64,000 bases of DNA from Kovacikia minuta CCNUW1 (lineage in GTDB: Bacteria; Cyanobacteriota; Cyanobacteriia; Leptolyngbyales; Leptolyngbyaceae), in the NCBI RefSeq assembly GCF_020091585.1, contig NZ_CP083582.1:3348001-3412000 (forward strand). The letters run 5' to 3'. A program made the translations under genes and the position numbers. Positions 3,788 through 63,311 of this stretch are shown here, piece after piece. Below the pieces are notes generated by a model, which was not told the DNA's origin, made no database searches, and saw only the letters and a list, made by a program, of their open reading frames with translations. Numbering within the stretch: the first letter of the stretch is position 1; every line of letters begins with the position of its first letter.

Positions 3788-4522
3788 TTAGAGGTCAGGT
3801 GCTTCCCACCATCTCTGAGGATCATCCTTGTATTTCCGCCGAATCTCTGACAATCTTTTCCAAACTTCTGGGAATGCCTGCCAATCTTTAGCTTTATATC
3901 GAGGGTCAGATTCGTAGTAGAGGCTGGCTTCATAGCATTCTGCCTCCGCTTGCACCAGTTTTGTCAAGCTTGAATAAGCAATGAGGTACTCACCGTAATC
4001 ATCTCCTACGAAGTCAACAGCTAGAACAGGACTTGTATCCTGTTGCACCGAATCACCAACAACGGTATGGCATCCCTTCGTTGTATCGTAAGCCCAAAAA
4101 ATTGGAAAGAGGCGAGGATGCCATACTTTGCGTGCCCAGGAAAACTCACCTCCGTCTAAGCTGTTGATCAATTCATCACCCCAGCATACTTCCATCAAGC
4201 TTGAGTAGTCTTCTGGGAAATAGTCTTCCTCAGAAAAGGGTTGCGTTATGGTTTCGTAGATTGCGATGGCTGTCTCCAGCGGAAGAAATACCTCTCCGAG
4301 AAAATATTTCCCGTGCCACTCCTCATCCATCCATGCTCCATTTCCCCATTGATAGAGGTCATAAGCCTCTACAGGTAAACGAAAGGGTAATTCTGCTGTA
4401 AGCTCATCAATTTCTTCGCGTGTTAACCCTTCTTGAAGCGATTCAAAACGAGTGTTTCCTAATAACTCATGTCCTTCTAAACAAATGAGGATTCGTTCTA
4501 AAGCATCTGTTAAAACTGACAT
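3788..4522 (-). CDS. SMI1/KNR4 family protein
   Basis: Protein of 244 residues with the SMI1/KNR4 (SUKH-like) pattern: an acidic helix with EEIDELTAELPFRLPVEAYDLY, then WGNGAWMDE and a PLETAIAIYE strand-helix. In bacteria this superfamily often supplies immunity proteins to polymorphic toxins, but many members stand alone as here. The ATG at 4522 is chosen; a TTG at 4534 would add four residues. No toxin gene is seen beside it. The neighbours are small accessory genes (GNAT, GIY-YIG), which suggests a variable patch rather than a core operon. Confidence 0.8.
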   Translation of the reverse strand: MSVLTDALERILICLEGHELLGNTRFESLQEGLTREEIDELTAELPFRLPVEAYDLYQWGNGAWMDEEWHGKYFLGEVFLPLETAIAIYETITQPFSEEDYFPEDYSSLMEVCWGDELINSLDGGEFSWARKVWHPRLFPIFWAYDTTKGCHTVVGDSVQQDTSPVLAVDFVGDDYGEYLIAYSSLTKLVQAEAECYEASLYYESDPRYKAKDWQAFPEVWKRLSEIRRKYKDDPQRWWEAPDL

Positions 4523-35270: not shown

Positions 35271-38200
35271 TCAATTCAGGTTTGCCTGGGTTAGTTCCAG
35301 GATTTCATCGAAGCAGTAGTCATTTACCAGCCGCTTCAGCGATCGAGCCAGGGCAGAATCAGACTCAGGAATTTGCTCAATCAGTTTGAGAATCTGGTTG
35401 GCATCCACTCGTAGGGCAGCCTGGTGCAATTGGGTAATCCATTGGGGGGACATAGTTTGGAGGGAGGAGGGAGGGGGGAGGGGGGATGAAATGGCGTGTT
35501 CGTCTGTATTGGTGTCTCCGTCCTCTGGTTCCTCGTAAATGTACTTCACGCCCAGGTGGTGAGCCATTTTCTCGAAGATTTCCTGTTCTTTAAAGGGTTT
35601 ACCAACAAAGTCATCGCAACCTGCTGCCAAAATGTTCGATCGCTGTTCCTCGAAAGCGCTGGCGGTAAGGGCGATGATTTTGGTGGGGTGTGGGGTGTGG
35701 GGTGTGGGGTGTGGGGTGTGGGGTGTGGGGTGGGGAGATTGAGCGGTCTCTGCGTCCCCTGGCTCCTGATTCCTGGCTTCTTTCGCTCGAATCTGGCGGG
35801 TTGCCTCGTAGCCATTCATTACGGGCATGCGCATATCCATCCAGATCAGATGGGGATGGTAGGTTTGCCACTGGGCGATCGCTTCCTGCCCGTTGTCTGC
35901 GGTGCGAACTTCAAACCCAATAGTGCTCAGGAGTTGGGCAATCAGGTCGCGGTTTTCGGGGCGATCGTCCACGACCAGAATGCGGTAGGCGGGTTGGTCT
36001 GGGGCAAGCCTGAGGACGCGCCTGCTGGTCGAAGGGGGAACCACCTCAACTGGATCTGCCAGGGTTACTGGGATCTCGAAGTAGAAAGTTGAGCCGACAT
36101 CTACCGTGCTGACGAAGTAAATATCACCCCCCATCAATTGCACGAATTGACGACTGATGGCAAGTCCCAGGCCTGTCCCTTCTCTGGTTTGGGTTCCAAC
36201 CGTTGTCTGAACAAAGGGTTCAAACAATCGATCCATCTCTTCTAACGCAATCCCGCAGCCGGTGTCTTCGACTTCAAAGAAGAGGGTGAGGGGTGGGGAG
36301 TAGGGGGTGTGGGGTGTGGGGTGTGGGGTGTGGGGTGTGGGGTGTGGGGTGTGGGGTGTGGGGTGTGGGGTGTGGGGTGTGGGGAGTGGGGTCTCCACAT
36401 CTCTGTGTCTCTGGATCTCTGCGTCTCCTGGCTCCTGACTCCCTTCCTCTCCTGGCTCAACCCGCAACCGCAAAACTACCCCTCCCCGTTGGGTGAATTT
36501 AATGGCATTTCCCAGTAGATTGATGAGAACCTGGCGCAGTTTGCCTTCGTCGGTGAAAACGTATTGGGGCAAGTCGGAGGCAAGCTCAAACTGAAGCGAG
36601 AGGTGTTTGGCGGCTGCCCGGATTTGAAACATTTCGCGCAGGGTTTGTAGCAGCAGTAGTAGATCGAAGGGAACGGGGTTTGCGGTGACTCGCCCTGCTT
36701 CGATTTTGGACATTTCCAAAACATCGTTAATCAGGTTTAGCAGGTGTTCGCCGCTACGGTTGATGGTTACCAGGGAGTTGCGCTGATTGGCGGTCAGGGC
36801 GATGTCTCGTTCCATGAGTTGGGAAAAACCGAGAATGGCGTTTAAGGGGGTGCGGAGTTCGTGGCTCATGTTTGCCAGGAAGGCACTTTTTGCCCGGTTG
36901 GCGGCTTCGGCTGCATCCTTGGCAATTCGGAGGGCAGATTCTGCTTTGTGACGGGCACGACCGATCGCAATCAGTTCTCCCACCAACTTGAGTAAATTAA
37001 TTTCTGCATGGCTCCAGGTTTTGGAGTAATGCACCACATCTGCCCCTAAAAACCCAACGACGCGATCGGAGTGAATCATGGGAACGACAACCGCAGATTG
37101 CACGGAGAGGCTGGTAAAAAAGTTTCTTTCTGCTGAGTTTGGCGGGAGTGCTGAGATCTGGGCAATTTGCAGCACATCTCCCTGGCTGACTTGATGATGC
37201 AGATAGGAGAATTCTGCAACGGAAGCACCATTGGGATAGTGGGGTAAGGGTTTGATGTTCGGTGCATGCCATGCCTGTATCAGGTGAATCCGGCTCTGGT
37301 CAGGCGAGTATTCGAAAATACTGGCGCGTTCGGCTTCAATCAATTGGGCGATCGCTTCCAGGGCAAAGTCCAGGGCAGTTGTCCCATCCTGATCGATAAA
37401 CTGGCGAGAAATACTGCTCAGCAAACTATCGATTTGGGCACGCCGCGCCAGGGCATCTTCCGCCTGCTTGCGCTCTAGTTCAGCCCCAGCACGGGCAGCA
37501 AAAATCTTCAGGATTAATTCCCGTCCTGGATCGGACTCCATCGGTTGGTTATCCATCACTGCCATGTGACCCAGAATTTCTCCCGATGAGTCGATCAGGG
37601 GAACGCCTAAATAGCTCTCTGCCTTCATGTCAACCAGCAAGGCATCTTCAGGAAAAAGCTGCTGAAGGTCGGCGGGATAGTAACAGGTTCTACCCTGAAA
37701 AACCTGTTCGCAGGGGCTGTTTTGCAGGCAATAGGTAAAGTTTTCAGCAAATCCATCCCCGCTCCAGCACGCCAGGGTGTGGACAGAATCGCCGATGTCT
37801 TCCCCATGCTCAGAAACGAGGGCGTAACGAACTCGCAGCACTCTGGCGAGGTAACGAACACAGGCACGGAAAAATTCATCCCCCGTTTTGGAAGCGGTGC
37901 CTTCGACGATTAACCGCAGGGCTTCTTCCCGTTGTTTGCGATCGGTGATGTCTTCGGCAATGCAAAGTAGATGGGTGGGGTTTCCCTGGTCGTCGAACAA
38001 CGGTAATTTGAGGGTGCGTGCCAGGATGGTTTCCTGGGTGGTCGGCAGGGGCTGCTCGACCACTTCCAATAACGTTTTTTGTTGGACTGCCTGAAGGTCC
38101 TGTGCTCGGAAGAAATCTGCCTGTTCCTGGGGAATCAGGTCGTAGTCGGTTAGCCCGATCGCCCCTGTTCTGGAAAAGCCTAGGATTTTTTCTGAACTGT

Positions 38201-41200
38201 TGTTGATTAATACGTAGCGGAAATCGTTCTGGATATCTTTGGCAAATAGTGCCAGGGGAATGTTTTCAATAATGCTGTTGAGGAATTGCTGGGACTGGCG
38301 CAGTTCTTCCTCAAGCCTTTTGCGCTCGCTGATGTCGGTCAGCACAAAATCCAGGCACCCTTCCTCAGGGTTAACGCGGAGTGATAGCAGTCCCCAGGCG
38401 ATCGAGCCATCGGGGCGGCGCAGTTGTTCTTCAAAGTTTCGCACTTCACCGTAGGTATCAAATTCTTCCAGGATGCGATCTCGATCGGCGGGATTGGCAT
38501 AGAACTCTTCGGTGAAGCGTCTGCCAACCAGGTCAGCGGGAGTGTTAAAACCCATAATTTCGGCATAACGCTGGTTCACTTCCAGAAACATGCCATCTCC
38601 CAAACGGGTGCGCCCAATCCCTACCTGGGAGTTTTCAAAAATGTTGCGGTACTTCAGTTCATTGCGCCGCAGGGCTTCTTCTGCCTGTTTGCTGGCGGTG
38701 ATGTCGGTAATTACCCCTTCCAGACAATATTCTTCCTGGTTCAGGCGCACGGAGTACATGCCCCAGCGAATGGAACCATCCTGCTGGCGGAACTGCATCT
38801 CAAAATTGTTGACTTCACCGGTTGCCAGCAACTCTTCTAGCATGCGATCCCGATCCTCGGGATGCACATAAAACTCGGTCGATCGCCGTTTTCCAATCAC
38901 ATCTTCTGGCGAACATAGGCCTGTGAATTCGACGTATTTCTGGTTTGCTTCCAGGATCAGCCCATCTTCTAAGCGGGTTCGAAAGATGCCAACCTGGGAG
39001 TTGTTAAAGATGTTGCGAAATTTGAGTTCACTGCGCCGCAGGGCTTCTTCAGCTTGTTTGCGTTCAGTTACATTGGTGCCAACGGAAAGGATTTCCACCA
39101 CATTTCCAGCTTCGTCCAAAATGGGTTTGTTAGACCAGACAACCCAGACCCGATCGCCGTTTTTGCACAGATTCTCGTTTTCATTCAGGGCATAGCGTTC
39201 GGGATGATGGCGCATGTCGTGCACAAGTGCGTTTAGATCGCGCCCGGAGCTTTCCATTTCGGGGACGATCGTCCCCATCACGTTATGTCCGATGAGTTCG
39301 TTTGCTTCGTAGCCAAAAAAGCGTTGTCCGTAATCATTGATAAACCGGATGATGCCACGGGTATCAAAGCGGACGATGATACAATTTGCTGCTTCAACCA
39401 GGTCGCGATATTGGGCTTCGCTTTCCCGCAGGGCTGCTTCCGTTCGCTTGCGATCGCTGACATCTTGAATCAAACTCAAAATTGAAATCGCTTTGCCAGC
39501 GTCATCCAGCAATACGGAGTTATACCACTCACAGTCCAGTACGCGTCCATCTTTGGCATAGTTGCGGTTGTAACTGATATTTTGTTGATCCTGACCATTT
39601 AATAGGCGGGTTGCAATTTCGCTGACCTGAGCCTGGTCTGCCTCATAAATGAAGCTCCAATCGCTCCAGACTTTGCCAATTAACTCCTCTGCTTTCCAGC
39701 CAAAAATGTGCTCAGCCTGGTGAGACCAGTGGCTAATCCGCAGTTCGTGATCCCATTCGATGACCCCCAGGGGCGAATTTTCGATGTGGAATGCCAACTG
39801 TTGGTGTGCTTGCCGCAGTGCTTCTTCCGCCCGTTTGCGATCGGTCACGTCCATGCCTAAACCAATCATGCGAACTGCCTGACCTGCACTGTTTCGCAGG
39901 GTCAGTCCTTTGCCTAAAATCCAATGAACGCTGCCATCTGCCCACAGAATCCGAAATTCAATGTCGTAGTCTGTTCCGGTTTCGATCGCATGGGCAATTT
40001 CCCGCGTCACCTCTGCCCGATCCTGGGGATGGACAATCCGCAAGAATTCGTCGAAGGTGCCACCAAAGCTACCTGGAGCCATGCCATGAATTTCTTCCAG
40101 GTTGTCTGACCATTTCACCTCGCCAGTCAGAATATTCCAATCCCAACTGCCCATGCGTCCAGCTTCCAACGCCAGTCGTAGCCGTTCCTCACTTTCGCGT
40201 AATGCCCTGTTCCGTTTGCTTGCGATCGGTAATATCGATGCTGGTGCCTTCGTAATAGAGAATGCCACCTGCGTCATCGCGGACGATACGGGCATTTTCG
40301 GATACCCAGATGATGCTGCCGTCCTTGCGATAGACCTGGGCTTCAAAATCGGTGACCGCGTAGTTTTTATGAAGTGCGAGTTGGAATTCTATGCGGCGAT
40401 CGGGGTTGACGTAAAGTTCTTGCCCAATGTCCGTGAGTGTCGTGATCATTTCTGTGGGCGAGGAATAGCCATGCATCCGAGCCAGGGTGGGATTGACGCT
40501 CAGGTAATGCCCATCGGGAGTACTTTGGTAGATCCCAACAACGGCATTTTCAAAAATGCTGCGATACCGTTCTTCTGCCTGTTTGAGGGCCGCTTCGGTG
40601 CGTCTGTAATCGGTGACATCGCGAAAGCTCCAGGCACGTCCAATGATTTGCCCATTGCTGCGAAGGGGTTGGGAATAGCGCTCAAAGATCCGACCGTCCT
40701 TAAATTCCAGCAGTTCCAGGGCAACTTCATCGGGGCGATCGCGAAATAATTGCCAGACCCGACTGAGAAATTGCTCCGAATTTTGGGTTTGTTCGCTCAA
40801 AAACTGTAATCGTTCATCGGCACTGCCGGGCAGCATCAGTGATTCGGGCATGCGCCACATCTGGAGAAATTTGCGGTTATAGATGGGTGTATTGCGATCG
40901 CGGGTTACCACCAAAATTCCATCGGCTGTCGATTCCAGGGTGGCTTGTAGCAAGGAAACATATTTCTCCCGTTCCTGTTCCGTGCGTTGATGCTCGACTA
41001 ACGCCTGGTGCTCCTGGGTCACATCCCGAATGATCAGCACCACTGGAGAGCCGTCTTCGACCTCAATGCAGTCACCGGAGATTTCGAGGAGGTGGGGTGT
41101 GGGGTGTGGGGTGTGGGGTGTGGGGTGTGGGGTGTGAGGTGTGGGGTGTGGGGTGTGGGGGTGTGGGGTGTGGGGTGTGGGGTGTGGGGTGGAATTCGTA

Positions 41201-41482
41201 GAGGGTAGGTTCGTAGGAGTGGGCGCGGAGCTTTGCGTCAGGATACTCTGTGATGGCAAGGAAATTTCCAGCCTGTTGTAGGGGCAACACATCCCTGAGG
41301 CAAGAGCCAACTACATTAGGGTCAAAACGGTTGACCAGACGGCTAAACGCCGGATTACACCGCTCGATTCGCTGCTCTGCATCCGTCCAGACAACAGCAT
41401 CTGCGATCGCTCCTAGGGCTTTCTCTAGCCTGCATAGGGTCGATTGCAACTGCTTCAGCAGGTTGGCTGAATCGGTTTCCAT
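35271..41482 (-). CDS. Giant PAS/GAF hybrid sensor histidine kinase, two frame breaks, three internal repeat arrays
   Basis: One gene of about 2,069 residues when two extra bases are removed (one C at 40205-40207, one G at 41157-41161); as sequenced it falls into three frames (41482-41072, about 41190-40189, 40346-35271). The ATG at 41482 follows AAGGAG. Order: about nine PAS domains (each closing with DVTDRK-type linkers; two neighbouring ones, with NIFNNSQVGIFRTR and NIFENSQVGIGRTR, look recently duplicated), two GAF domains, HisKA with ANMSHELRTPLNAILGFSQL, HATPase_c, a receiver domain (LVVDDRPENR, WMDMRMPVMNGYEA) and a short helical tail. No membrane helix was noticed, so it is probably cytoplasmic. 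Heptanucleotide arrays add TPHPTPH stretches in the first PAS, in HATPase_c and in the receiver. Confidence 0.88.
35685..35731. repeat. Intragenic heptanucleotide array 1 (GGGGTGT x6) in the receiver domain
   Basis: Six full units and a partial one. On the coding strand they give TPHPTPH repeats placed directly before KIIALTA, the fourth strand of the receiver domain. The present copy number keeps the frame. A 27-base block at 35747-35773 next to it recurs with 25 identities at 36416-36442 beside array 2, so array and block look like one inserted composite repeat. Confidence 0.92.
36304..36391. repeat. Intragenic heptanucleotide array 2 (GGGGTGT x11 + GGGGAGT) in the HATPase domain
   Basis: Twelve units, 84 bases and thus 28 codons, coding Thr-Pro-His repeats between the N box region (NLLGNAIKFTQRGGVVLRLRV) and LFFEVEDTGCGI, the G1 box. 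Together with the adjoining block at 36416-36442 it inserts roughly 50 residues into the ATP-binding domain. In frame at the present copy number. Confidence 0.92.
41094..41190. repeat. Intragenic heptanucleotide array 3 (GGGGTGT x13) in the first PAS domain, with an extra G
   Basis: Thirteen units, one of them GAGGTGT, plus a partial one: 97 bases. The tenth unit has five G instead of four (41157-41161). Without that G the array is 96 bases and joins the YEF side to the LLEISGDCIEV side in one frame; with it the frame is lost. Confidence 0.9.
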
Positions 41483-41578
41483 TCCTGACTCCTTATTACC
41501 AGACACAAGGGCTATACAATTCGCTCGTCTTTTGCAAAAATTAACGTCAACCGGAACTGGTCTGAGCCACGTTTAAAT

Positions 41579-44500
41579 ATGATGTTGCCAAAAAAAGATA
41601 CTCCAATCGTTACTCTAGCGCTCTTGCTAACTCTATCTGCCGCCTCTGAACCTTTTATACACAAGTTTTTAACGACCCATCCGGTTCTGGCTCAATCTGC
41701 ATCTCCAACGGCTACACCCCTGCCCCCGGTTGCCCCGAAGGATAAATTGGTACGGATTGATGGCTCGACCAGCATGGCAACGATTAATCAGGCGTTGAAG
41801 CAGCGTTACGAAACCCAATATTCTGGGACAACGGTTGATTTGACCTACAACGGTACCCGCTCTGCCCTGCAAGCGTTGCTAGATGGCAAGATTGACCTGG
41901 CGGCGATCGGGCGTTCTCTAACGCCAGAGGAGAAGGCGAAGGGATTCATCCAGGTGCCGGTCTCTCGGAATAAAATTGCGATGGTGGTTGGTCCTAACAA
42001 CTCCTTTACGGGCAGCCTCAGTGATCGGCAATTTGCCCAAATTTTCCGGGGCGAAATTACGGATTGGTCGCAAGTGGGCGGTTCTCCCGGTCCAATTCGC
42101 TTTATTGACCGCCCGGAGGATAGTGATACTCGCCAGGCGTTACAGAATTATCCTGTTTTCAGGGTAGCGCCCTTTGCGGCGGGTGCCAATGCGGTCAGGT
42201 TACCCAATGACACGACAGAGACGGTGATTCAGGAGCTAGGGACTGATGGCATCAGCTATGCGATCGCTGACCAGGTAGTAGAGAAACCGGGTGTGACTGT
42301 CCTCAAGATGCATGGAACGCTTCCCAGCGACCCCCGTTATCCCTTCTCCCAACCGCTGGTCTACGTGTATCGGGGTACTCCCCCTGCTGCGGTCAAAAGC
42401 TTCCTGGCTTACGTCACTGCTCAGGAAAATAAGGCGGCGATCGAGGAGGCACGGGTTGAGGGGGCAACCGCTTCTCCCTCCCCTATTGCAGAGGCAACCG
42501 CTTCTCCCTCGCCTGCGGCGACTCCTACCCCGGCAGCCAGCCCTGACCCCGCAGTCAGCCCTACCCCGGCAGCCAGCCCTGACCCCGCCGCCAGTACGGG
42601 AGTCAGGGATATCTCTCCCTGGTGGTTGCTGCTGCCTGCGGCAATTCTCGGGTTAGCCTGGTTTTGGGGTAACCGGGGGGCAGGTGCGCCGCCTGTTGCA
42701 AGCAGCACTCCTGCGGCTGGCACAGCGGCGACTGGAGGGATTACTCCCTCCCCGGTTCCCCCCGTGCCCTCTCCCACTCCTGCCCCTGCCTCTGTTGCTC
42801 CGATCGACGCTCCTGAAGGGACAGCGGTACGGGAAGCCTCTATTCCTCCTGCAACGAGAGAGGGAGCTGAGGTTCCTGGTATAGCTTCTGTCACTCCACC
42901 GATCACACCTGTTGAAGCAGCAACCCCAGCAGTGGGGGCGGGAGCGGCGGGAGCGGCGATCGCAGCGGGAGCGGGAGCGGCTGCCTTGGCGGGGCTGGCA
43001 GGGGCAAAATCCCGCGCTAACAGTACCATTACCCTCACCCCCCGCGATGCTTATCAGGCGTACACCAAGTGGGATGCCCCAGAGGAGCATCGGGCTGAGT
43101 TGCAGGCGCAGGGCGGCGATAACCTGATGCTGCGGCTGTACGATGTCACTGGACAGGACCCAAAAACCTACACGCCTGAAAACTTTGAAGAATTCGATGT
43201 GAGTGAGCAGGACTGGGATCGGAATCTGCCTGTTTTAAGCGATCGTGATTATGTTTCGGAAGTTGGATATACTGCCCCAGAGGGTCGCTGGCTGCCCCTG
43301 GCTCGTTCTAACCCCATTCGGATCAAGTCTCCCAATCTGGTTGCTCCCCCCGTTGAGCTGGTTCATCCGCCCGAAGGCTCACCAGCGGTTGAGGCAATTC
43401 CCCTCATCCAGACTCTTTCCCCTCCTGCCCCTGATACCGGGGCGATCGCGGGTGTTGCAGGAGCGGCGATCGCCGGGGGGGCTGCCCTTTCCGCTCTCAG
43501 CAGCGACCCGCAATCGGATGTGGAAGCCGCTAAGTTTGATGTTGGACAAACGGATCTGAGTAGTGAATCCCTGGCTTCTGTGGATGCGGGGTTGCCCGAT
43601 TTACCAGACGGTTACGGCGAAAGCCGAATTGTTTTGATGCCCCGCGATCCTCAATGGGCGTATTCCTACTGGGATACCCCGGATGAACACAAGTCGGAAC
43701 TGCGCCGCCAGGGGGGAGAAAAGCTGGCGCTGCGGATCTATGATGTCACCGATATTGACCTGAACCAGCAGGCTTCCCACAGTCTGCAACAGTATGACTG
43801 CGATGAGCTGGCGCGGGATTGGTATGTGCCGATTCCGGTCAGCGATCGCGACTATATTGCCGAAATTGGCTATGTCACCGGTGATGGTCGCTGGTTGATG
43901 TTGGCTCGCTCCGCTCCCTGCCGCATTCCCCCTGTCTACCCCTCCGACTGGTATGAGGAACACTTTGCCACGGTTTCCTGGGAAGAGAACCTGCGTGGCA
44001 GAACCATTCTGGATCTGGTTCCTCCCAGCCAGATTATGGGATCGGCTGCTCCAATTTATGACCAGGTGTTTGGCATGAGCGAGTCCGCTGAAGCAATGCG
44101 CATCGCTGGTTCTCTGTTTGGTTCAATGCAGCATGTTCCTGGTTCTGTCTTTGGGTCCGCCCAGATGGCTTCTGGGCAAGCGTTGAGTTCTTTCCAGGCT
44201 ATTCCTGGGCAGGCGGTCAGCTCCTATATCTTCCCGTCTGGGGTGGGAATGGGTGTAGTGCCCACTTTTTCTGGCCTCACTATGTCGGGAGTTGGGTTCT
44301 CGGCATCCATGCCACCGATTCGCGCTCGCAAGTTCTGGCTGGTTGCGGATGCAGAACTCATTATCTACGGCGCAACTGAACCGGATGCTACCGTGACGAT
44401 CGCCGGTCGCCCCATCACCCTCAACCCCGATGGTACCTTCCGCTTCCAGATGTCCTTCCAGGATGGCTTGCTAGACTTCCCAATTATGGCGGTTGCTGCC

Positions 44501-44599
44501 GATGGTGAACAAAATCGGGCGATTCACATGAAGTTTACCCGCGAAACCCCAGAACGACGGACGAATACAAAGGATGAGGCGCAGGAAGAGCCGTTTTAG
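41579..44599 (+). CDS. PstS-like periplasmic binding domain fused through a membrane helix to two DUF4912 domains
   Basis: Protein of 1,006 residues. A signal segment (LALLLTLSAASEPFI) is followed by a phosphate-binding-protein-like domain at about 50-285 (LVRIDGSTSMATINQALKQR; LAAIGRSLTPEEKAKG; PVSRNKIAMVVG). Then come Pro/Ala/Ser repeats (ASPDPAVSPTPAASPDPA), a membrane helix near 345 (WWLLLPAAILGLAWFW), a long Ala/Gly-rich linker, and two DUF4912 domains at about 475-580 and 680-785 that share the pattern ITLTPRDAYQAYTKWD / IVLMPRDPQWAYSYWD. The C-terminus is strand-rich with DAELIIYGATEPDATVTI. Topology suggests ligand binding outside and DUF4912 inside, but the function is unknown. Confidence 0.85.
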   Translation: MMLPKKDTPIVTLALLLTLSAASEPFIHKFLTTHPVLAQSASPTATPLPPVAPKDKLVRIDGSTSMATINQALKQRYETQYSGTTVDLTYNGTRSALQALLDGKIDLAAIGRSLTPEEKAKGFIQVPVSRNKIAMVVGPNNSFTGSLSDRQFAQIFRGEITDWSQVGGSPGPIRFIDRPEDSDTRQALQNYPVFRVAPFAAGANAVRLPNDTTETVIQELGTDGISYAIADQVVEKPGVTVLKMHGTLPSDPRYPFSQPLVYVYRGTPPAAVKSFLAYVTAQENKAAIEEARVEGATASPSPIAEATASPSPAATPTPAASPDPAVSPTPAASPDPAASTGVRDISPWWLLLPAAILGLAWFWGNRGAGAPPVASSTPAAGTAATGGITPSPVPPVPSPTPAPASVAPIDAPEGTAVREASIPPATREGAEVPGIASVTPPITPVEAATPAVGAGAAGAAIAAGAGAAALAGLAGAKSRANSTITLTPRDAYQAYTKWDAPEEHRAELQAQGGDNLMLRLYDVTGQDPKTYTPENFEEFDVSEQDWDRNLPVLSDRDYVSEVGYTAPEGRWLPLARSNPIRIKSPNLVAPPVELVHPPEGSPAVEAIPLIQTLSPPAPDTGAIAGVAGAAIAGGAALSALSSDPQSDVEAAKFDVGQTDLSSESLASVDAGLPDLPDGYGESRIVLMPRDPQWAYSYWDTPDEHKSELRRQGGEKLALRIYDVTDIDLNQQASHSLQQYDCDELARDWYVPIPVSDRDYIAEIGYVTGDGRWLMLARSAPCRIPPVYPSDWYEEHFATVSWEENLRGRTILDLVPPSQIMGSAAPIYDQVFGMSESAEAMRIAGSLFGSMQHVPGSVFGSAQMASGQALSSFQAIPGQAVSSYIFPSGVGMGVVPTFSGLTMSGVGFSASMPPIRARKFWLVADAELIIYGATEPDATVTIAGRPITLNPDGTFRFQMSFQDGLLDFPIMAVAADGEQNRAIHMKFTRETPERRTNTKDEAQEEPF

Positions 44600-61563: not shown

Positions 61564-61687
61564 ATGCAACATCGCAAGATTCAGGAGTCAGGAGCCAGGA
61601 GTAGAAAAGCAATAAGACTTTCAACCTTACGATGTGTACTTCGTTTATGCATCACTCCTCCATGTTTTGCATCAAAAGGAATCAATA

Positions 61688-63311
61688 ATGGTTAAGTTAA
61701 TGAGACTGCCCTGCTGGTCTGCCCTGCTGGTTGGTCTGTCTTTCATGGTTTCAGTGTCAACTCAAGCCCAATCAAACCACCAGGGTACTCCACCCAAACC
61801 CGTCGCCCTGGCTCAGGCGGTCAATCCGCAAAAAGTCACAGAAGCCAGTGTCAAAGCTGCTCTACCTGAGATGGAAACTCTTGCGAATCAACTGCTGAAA
61901 AAGACGGGTGTACCAGGACTGGCGATCGCAGTTGTCTACAAAGATCAGGTTGTTTATCTGAAAGGGTTCGGTGTGCGGGAAGCAGGTAAACCTGCTCCGG
62001 TCGATCCGGATACCGTTTTTCAATTGGCTTCTGTTTCTAAACCGATCGCTTCAACCATTGTGGCGGGGGTAGTTGGGGATGGCTTGGTCAAGTGGGATGA
62101 TCCGATTATCAAACACTACCCCAGCTTTGAAATGGACAGCCCTTATGTGACCCGTGAGGTAACCCTGCGTGATATGTTCTCGCCATCGCAGTGGGTTGCC
62201 TGACCATGCCGGGGATGATCTGGAAGACCTGGAATTTGACCGGACAACGATTTTGCAACGGTTGCGCTATCTGCCCCTGGGCGATCGGTTTCGCTCAGTT
62301 TATAACTACACCAATTTTGGGTTGACCGCCGCCGCTGAGGCAACGGCAAAAGCAACCGGAAAATCCTGGGAAGATCTTGCCTTCGATCGGCTGTATCAAC
62401 CCCTGGGTATGAACCGAACCAGTTCGCGCTATGAAGACTTTGCCAGGGCTGAGAACCGGGCACTTGGGCATGTTCCAGTCAATGGCAAATGGGTGGCTAA
62501 ATATCAACGCAAGCCGGATGCCGAGTCTCCCGCAGGAGGGGTTAGTTCGACCGTGCGTGACATGGCAAAGTGGGTGCGGCTGCAACTTGGGAACGGCATG
62601 TTTGAGGGGAAACAAGTCATTGCTGCCAAACCGCTGGCAGAGACCCACATTCCCCACATGGTCAACGATCCGCCGAAGAATCCCAATCTCGATCGGGCAA
62701 GCTTTTATGGATTGGGTTGGAATGTCAGCTATTCTGACAGGGGATTGGTGCAGTTGGGGCATTCTGGTGCCTTCAATCTGGGGGCTGGGACGGCGGTCTA
62801 TTTGCTGCCAGCGGAGGACATTGGGATCGTGGTTCTGTCCAATGCTCGTCCGATCGGGGTGCCAGAAACGATCGCGGTGAGTTTTCTAGACATGGTGCAA
62901 TACGGGAAGTCTCGACACGACTACTTTGAGCTATTTCAACCTGCCTTTGCAACGCTCGAAAAACCGAACTACGGGACGCTGGTGGATTACACTAAACCGC
63001 CTGCCCAACGGTTACCCTCAATGCCTTTGACCACTTACACTGGTACGTATCGCAACCACTATTTCGGTGAAGTTGAGATCGCAGCCAGAGCGGGTAAATT
63101 GTTTCTGCTTCAAGGATTTAAGAAACAGGCATTCCCTTTACAGCATTACGATCGCGATATGTTTACCTACCAACCCGAAGGCGAAAATGCCTACGGTTTA
63201 AGTGGGGTAACTTTTACCATTGGCGCAAATGGAAAAGCGACAGCCGTAATGGTTGAAGACTTGAACATCAATCAACAGGGAACGTTTAAACGAGACTTGT
63301 CTAAGCCGTAA
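61688..63311 (+). CDS. Second secreted serine hydrolase with C-terminal DUF3471-like domain, frame broken once
   Basis: Paralogue of the previous gene. Signal peptide LLVGLSFMVSVSTQAQ; catalytic S115-V-S-K118; after the break YNYTNFG and LGHSGAFNLG supply the second and third motifs, and residues from about 430 (TYTGTYRNHYFGEVEIAARA) form the C-terminal domain. As sequenced the first frame stops at 62203: one extra base at 62182-62184 converts the expected RDMFSHRSGLPDHAG into another frame. Repaired length is about 540 residues. The ATG at 61688 follows AAGGA. Probably a sequence error, though loss of one paralogue would be tolerable. Confidence 0.88.

Follow-up and report, generated by a model that had tools for sequence, protein, structure and literature searches.

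GGGGTGT arrays in a hybrid histidine kinase gene of Kovacikia minuta belong to an abundant class of heptanucleotide repeats, probably tolerated as in-frame linkers

The gene region of a hybrid histidine kinase in Kovacikia minuta CCNUW1 contains three arrays of the heptanucleotide GGGGTGT (ACACCCC on the gene strand), which encode TPHPTPH stretches. These are three among very many such arrays in the genome, and they are probably best explained as slippage-prone heptamer repeats that are tolerated as disordered linkers, with selection holding the reading frame. A preliminary description of this DNA had recognised the arrays correctly and had proposed a possible frame-switching gene. The evidence favours tolerated in-frame arrays over a dedicated switch: no such switch is needed to account for the kinase arrays, and a selected switch is unproven. 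Here 'the window' means the whole stretch of 64,000 nucleotides that was analysed; coordinates are positions in the window and the kinase features lie on its minus strand.

The minus strand of positions 35271 to 41482 gives Pfam matches to PAS, GAF, HisKA, HATPase_c and receiver domains. The make-up is that of a hybrid histidine kinase, with HisKA, HATPase_c and receiver carrying the conserved His, Asn and Asp (H32, N146/N150 and D374 of the core, invariant across 31 aligned sequences). The Pfam matches cover 36693-36893 for HisKA, 36063-36284 for the C-terminal part of HATPase_c (profile positions 38-110) and 35778-35981 for the matched part of the receiver. A core of 561 residues from HisKA through HATPase_c to the receiver was modelled with AlphaFold2 using 30 homologues (mean pLDDT 80, pTM 0.59), and structure searches with this model return the fold of an ordinary hybrid kinase.

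The arrays had been assigned to one gene. As one open frame, this gene does not exist in the assembly: the gene strand of 35271-41482 contains stops in every frame (77, 66 and 15), and the kinase is split by two +1 shifts into three minus-strand ORFs, which were delimited from the ORF list, Pfam matches and, for the first two, a frame scan. ORF 1 (41072-41482; its open frame opens at 41506, with an ATG at 41482, and ends at 41072) is the N-terminal piece with the start of the first PAS domain, and is out of frame after array 1. ORF 2 (40189-41310) holds the rest of the first PAS region and further PAS domains, and ORF 3 (35271-40346; 1691 aa) includes PAS, GAF, HisKA, HATPase_c and receiver domains. 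The first frame change falls within array 1. The second, identified by frame scan and homologue comparison, is a +1 shift at a CCC (40205-40207) outside any array, where the two nearest orthologues read a single frame (ALRDSEERL and SLRNSEERL). Unless this second shift is a sequencing error, a change in array 1 alone could therefore not restore the frame of the whole kinase. As assembled, the kinase, broken at array 1 and elsewhere, is either decaying or carries consensus errors.

All three arrays were located by repeat search. Array 1 (41092-41191; 14.1 copies, 95% match) is out of frame by a net +1 nt according to the frame scan. Thirteen of its 14 units are 7 nt long and one is 8 nt, recognisable as a run of five G on the plus strand (41157-41161). 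Since the size of the shift is that of this visible 8-nt unit, no change in unit number is needed to explain it. Array 2 (36284-36392; 15.6 copies, 92% match) and array 3 (35683-35732; 7.1 copies, 100% match) are both in frame. The sites originally given for the arrays (first PAS domain, ATP-binding domain and receiver) hold in part. Relative to the Pfam matches, array 1 comes after the PAS_8 match in the first PAS domain (the orthologues carry this domain on without an array), array 2 precedes the matched C-terminal part of HATPase_c and array 3 follows the receiver match. In the AlphaFold2 model, arrays 2 and 3 are predicted to sit in low-confidence loops between well-predicted elements. The in-frame insert holding array 2 (36291-36458; core residues 172-216), which on the gene strand consists of a purine-rich part followed by the C-rich array, has a pLDDT below 50 and is placed with an ATPase-domain strand on either side. 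The in-frame receiver alpha3-beta4 loop holding array 3 (35682-35768; blocks 401-420) has a pLDDT of 53-59 and is placed between the helix 382-397 and the strand 426-431.

How common such arrays are was estimated from 100 evenly spaced stretches of 20 kb (2.0 Mb; L114-L213) of the 8.56-Mb genome, which is assembled in 3 contigs. Arrays of period 7 account for 390 of the 410 arrays with periods of 4 to 12; periods 4, 5, 6, 8, 9, 10, 11 and 12 contribute 0, 0, 1, 12, 3, 0, 1 and 3, respectively. ACACCCC/GGGGTGT is the commonest heptamer family (33 of the 251 period-7 arrays in the first 1.2 Mb), and the exact 21-mer (GGGGTGT)3 has 379 matches in the whole genome. This 21-mer is present in 12 of 58 genomes searched, K. 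minuta itself being included and no congener being in the set, and occurs chiefly in K. minuta and in three species that belong to a single other genus of the same family (90, 86 and 17 matches). A control with the reversed unit was void, as GGGGTGT reversed is a rotation of itself. The GGGGTGT family thus looks to have expanded recently in a few lineages.

The reading frame of arrays inside genes was examined for 308 array clusters using codon statistics of 360 nt on each side (threshold 9), with 11 clusters at stretch edges left unscored. Heptamer clusters are mostly outside genes: by codon score only, 162 of 297 have no coding side, 98 have one and 37 have coding sequence on both sides of one strand. 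The last group comprises 34 clusters with the same frame on both sides and 3 with different frames on one strand; at 4000 random places the corresponding numbers are 1273 and 58. On inspection, one open frame spans 31 of the 34 same-frame clusters and 3 are not spanned. Of the clusters scored as different, two mark gene boundaries (L123 and L179), and the third lies in a kinase whose frame breaks at a heptamer mosaic (L190). Intragenic clusters in the 2.0-Mb sample are therefore in frame in 31 of 32 cases, compared with one third expected if unit number drifted freely (p = 3.5e-14), a test that rests on a simple codon score and leaves the 98 one-sided and 162 non-coding clusters unclassified.

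A Pfam scan of 29 of the 30 host ORFs (the one left out, at L168, is a kinase that had already been inspected) identified, for example, PurK, an IleRS-like synthetase, glutamate synthase, a CobN/Mg-chelatase subunit, RecG, a penicillin-binding protein, a phosphate transporter and a nickel-insertion protein; 3 of the 29 gave no Pfam match. With housekeeping enzymes among the ORFs scanned, the tracts are not gathered in genes suited to switching. For some of these housekeeping genes, losing the frame would be lethal, so that frame-shifting repeats are not limited to genes that could be switched.

The strand on which the arrays are read is also restricted. Three 7-nt units sample all frames, and a unit containing a stop triplet can therefore not be read through. 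The sense strand is stop-free in 50 of the 52 arrays of same-frame clusters. For units with a stop on one strand only, that strand is antisense in 22 of 24 (p 3.6e-5), while the plus-strand split is 62:49 where neither side is coding. Arrays of the GGGGTGT family are stop-free both ways, and in the same-frame clusters the C-rich strand, encoding the TPH peptide, is the sense strand in 15 of 15 (p 6e-5). Short GGGGTGT-family arrays with G-rich sense do exist in HATPase loops that were fetched separately (L218 and L221).

The loop occupied by array 2 is a recurrent site. HATPase_c has 159 matches in the K. minuta genome and, among the matches listed, at least 17 (the window kinase included) start at profile position 23 or later and lack the part before one loop. 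In most of the matches examined (these and some long ones), this loop, between the N box and the G1 box, is filled with heptamer arrays, and one loop often strings together several families (RSQKPEARSQKPE...IQNSKFKIQNS...TPHPTPHT is an example). Outside the window, 39 distinct loops could be paired, of which 19 have arrays, 16 of these being in frame (11 of 14 with a stricter array score); with array 2 the count is 17 of 20. As the set consists of the late-starting matches and some long ones, it was partly picked for truncated domains and is enriched in broken genes. Very roughly, arrays are 12- to 16-fold enriched in this loop (about 53 kb of HATPase sequence has 20 arrays, or 15 with the stricter score; the coding-sequence background is 32 in about 1.39 Mb, a lower bound because strong coding was demanded on both sides).

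The three broken array loops (L190, L223 and L225) all have a length of 2 mod 3. Together with the window kinase, this makes four kinases of the genome in which the frame is lost at an array or a mosaic of heptamers. L190 has a second break upstream of the mosaic, a single-base gain in a short run. L223 (G000:C1:1070500-1075500) and L225 (G000:C1:5181500-5187000) are histidine kinases in which the HATPase-loop mosaic is the sole break seen in the fetched stretch. Another histidine kinase, at about 12.4 kb of L205 (G000:C1:4812417), is frameshifted within the HATPase domain without an array.

In other cyanobacteria, all of 174 distinct HATPase loops are in frame, including the 24 that contain arrays (24/24; 14 loops with the stricter score), in loci that come largely from draft contigs, in which a broken gene may escape detection. 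The two nearest orthologues of the window kinase are both intact (2174 aa in G015, where it adjoins the same divergent neighbour, a 1006-aa plus-strand gene at 41579-44599 of the window, and 2343 aa in G011). They have short, different sequences at the three loops and the GGGGTGT 21-mer is absent from both genomes; the tract is thus not conserved in the two orthologues examined. Loop 2 of the G011 orthologue holds another heptamer array (AGGAGCC, 36 nt). Orthologues of a different kinase in two genomes of one other genus (G003 and G043) are 84% identical over their matched stretch, and their HATPase loops contain heptamer inserts that differ greatly from each other. With matched segments of 84 and 57 residues, the two differ in length by 81 nt, divisible by 3 and not by 21. 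As the inserts differ and both frames are open, the content of the loop turns over with the frame kept.

We have weighed this picture against three other readings. In a contingency locus, slippage in an array would reversibly turn on or off the whole kinase or its receiver, and would be selected for doing so. One trait of such loci, a repeat inside an ORF with a unit length not divisible by three, is present: a 7-nt unit does shift the frame, array 1 lies near the gene start and is out of frame in the assembly, and breaks coincide with heptamer tracts in L190, in L223 and in L225, the last two having no other break seen. This part of the original proposal stands. A dedicated switch is disfavoured by the in-frame state of nearly all intragenic clusters and of every array loop from other cyanobacteria, by the arrays in housekeeping genes, by the two nearest orthologues, intact without GGGGTGT arrays, and by the second frameshift of the kinase, which is outside the arrays. 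We consider it unlikely. The arrays might instead act as nucleic acid, for example if G-quadruplexes on the template strand held back transcription or replication across the gene. In vitro, related heptamers rich in G do form G-quadruplexes, according to the available part of the source (PMC4692102), and the G-rich strand of the GGGGTGT family is the template in all 15 arrays of same-frame coding clusters. However, a hydrophilic peptide explains this orientation equally well, the orthologues manage without GGGGTGT arrays and the host genes are of many kinds, which makes such a role unlikely as well.

It is a serious possibility, to which we give slightly less than an even chance, that both shifts of the window kinase are errors of the assembly consensus, the gene being intact in the cell and the arrays in-frame passengers. 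Single-base gains in short runs are found in the 8-nt unit of array 1, at 40205-40207, in a PF00144 gene of the window and upstream of the mosaic in L190, and the orthologues are intact. Nevertheless, the breaks in the HATPase loops of L190, L223 and L225 leave the other residue (2 mod 3), and real pseudogenes would look alike. A counterpoint to the tolerance of in-frame arrays comes from the same loci: the broken array-bearing kinases (the window kinase and three more) outnumber the lone frameshifted HATPase without an array (L205). Arrays are thus associated with breaks, and may break genes.

Tolerance of in-frame arrays probably operates as follows. The kinase arrays belong to the tandem heptanucleotide repeats found genome-wide in cyanobacteria, which presumably originate and grow by slippage or copying. 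Those that land in genes would survive where the coding-strand unit is stop-free and the peptide falls in a surface loop; in the kinase, the loops occupied are a PAS loop, the HATPase loop between the N box and the G1 box, and the receiver alpha3-beta4 loop. There they would be translated as disordered linkers, and selection would keep the net insert divisible by three, as the statistics show for the genome and as we infer for the kinase gene. With units of 7 nt, slippage within an array, or an error of one base there, can break the gene.

Heptamer mosaics have further regularities. Neighbouring arrays less than 200 nt apart are of different families in 106 of 108 pairs, and in the 100 sampled stretches a G-rich array is followed by a C-rich one 37 times and the reverse order occurs twice; at 80 loci of other genomes, the G-rich to C-rich order leads by 5:0 among 21 pairs. 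We tentatively suggest, leaning slightly towards doubt, that the mosaics constitute one class of selfish-like repeat insertions, which are translated and have a fixed internal polarity (G-rich then C-rich, which reads identically on both strands). They would be filtered by stop codons and peptide character, enter the same surface loop of the histidine-kinase ATPase repeatedly over many kinases and genera, and turn over fast with the frame kept. A hairpin element was also considered and rejected: an inverted pair of one family occurs in only 1 of 108 neighbouring pairs, and folding, scored for 60 of 66 mosaics, is not shifted overall (p 0.14), though a z below -2 occurs in 28% against 5%.

Several known systems invite comparison. 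The STRR sequences of heterocystous cyanobacteria are short tandem heptamers present in many copies; the K. minuta arrays differ in mixing many families in mosaics, also within translated loops. In Rickettsia, palindromic elements are repeats that many unrelated proteins accommodate in frame. The heptamer clusters resemble these in being in frame in unrelated proteins (31/32 intragenic clusters), where they were presumably inserted, and differ in consisting of tandem 7-mer arrays in mosaics with no single conserved hairpin palindrome. Simple-sequence contingency loci of pathogens (Neisseria, for example) likewise have a tandem repeat inside an ORF, with a unit length not divisible by three; in K. 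minuta, known from its assembly alone, the in-frame state dominates and the arrays are genome-wide, including in housekeeping genes.

Closer relatives are the G-rich heptameric repeats of Nostoc sp. PCC 7120 and Xanthomonas, which, as the available part of the report has it, form many arrays per genome, some of them intragenic (Rehm et al. 2015, PMC4692102). From the same part, 68% of the Nostoc heptamers are intergenic and the authors judged phase variation unlikely (Rehm et al. 2015, PMC4692102). Our arrays are alike in having G-rich 7-nt units in many, partly intragenic arrays. They differ in unit (GGGGA(C/T)T in those genomes); coding arrays there are under-represented on the coding strand, and that part of the report describes no recurrent kinase loop (PMC4692102). 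The TAACTGA repeats of Beggiatoaceae and Microcystis, as given in the accessible part of another report, are mostly intergenic and upstream of start codons (PMC4679880); they too are direct repeats of a heptamer, which in Microcystis occur alongside other heptamers, and the unit is different. Among the matches listed in a search of open-access titles and abstract openings, there was no case of heptamer phase variation in a cyanobacterial kinase and none of in-frame heptamer mosaics recurring in kinase loops.

If these readings are correct, a common class of cyanobacterial repeats would rapidly supply proteins with disordered loops, chiefly at a single site in the catalytic domain of histidine kinases, and would amount to a natural experiment showing at which positions a signalling enzyme can change in length. 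Repeat units that are not a multiple of three would then be weak evidence of phase variation by themselves, and loops of this kind may be hot spots of gene breakage, real or apparent, in annotation. Elsewhere in the window, the PF00144 (beta-lactamase family) gene on the plus strand (61634-63311) is split by a +1 shift near 62180-62195, where there is no array.
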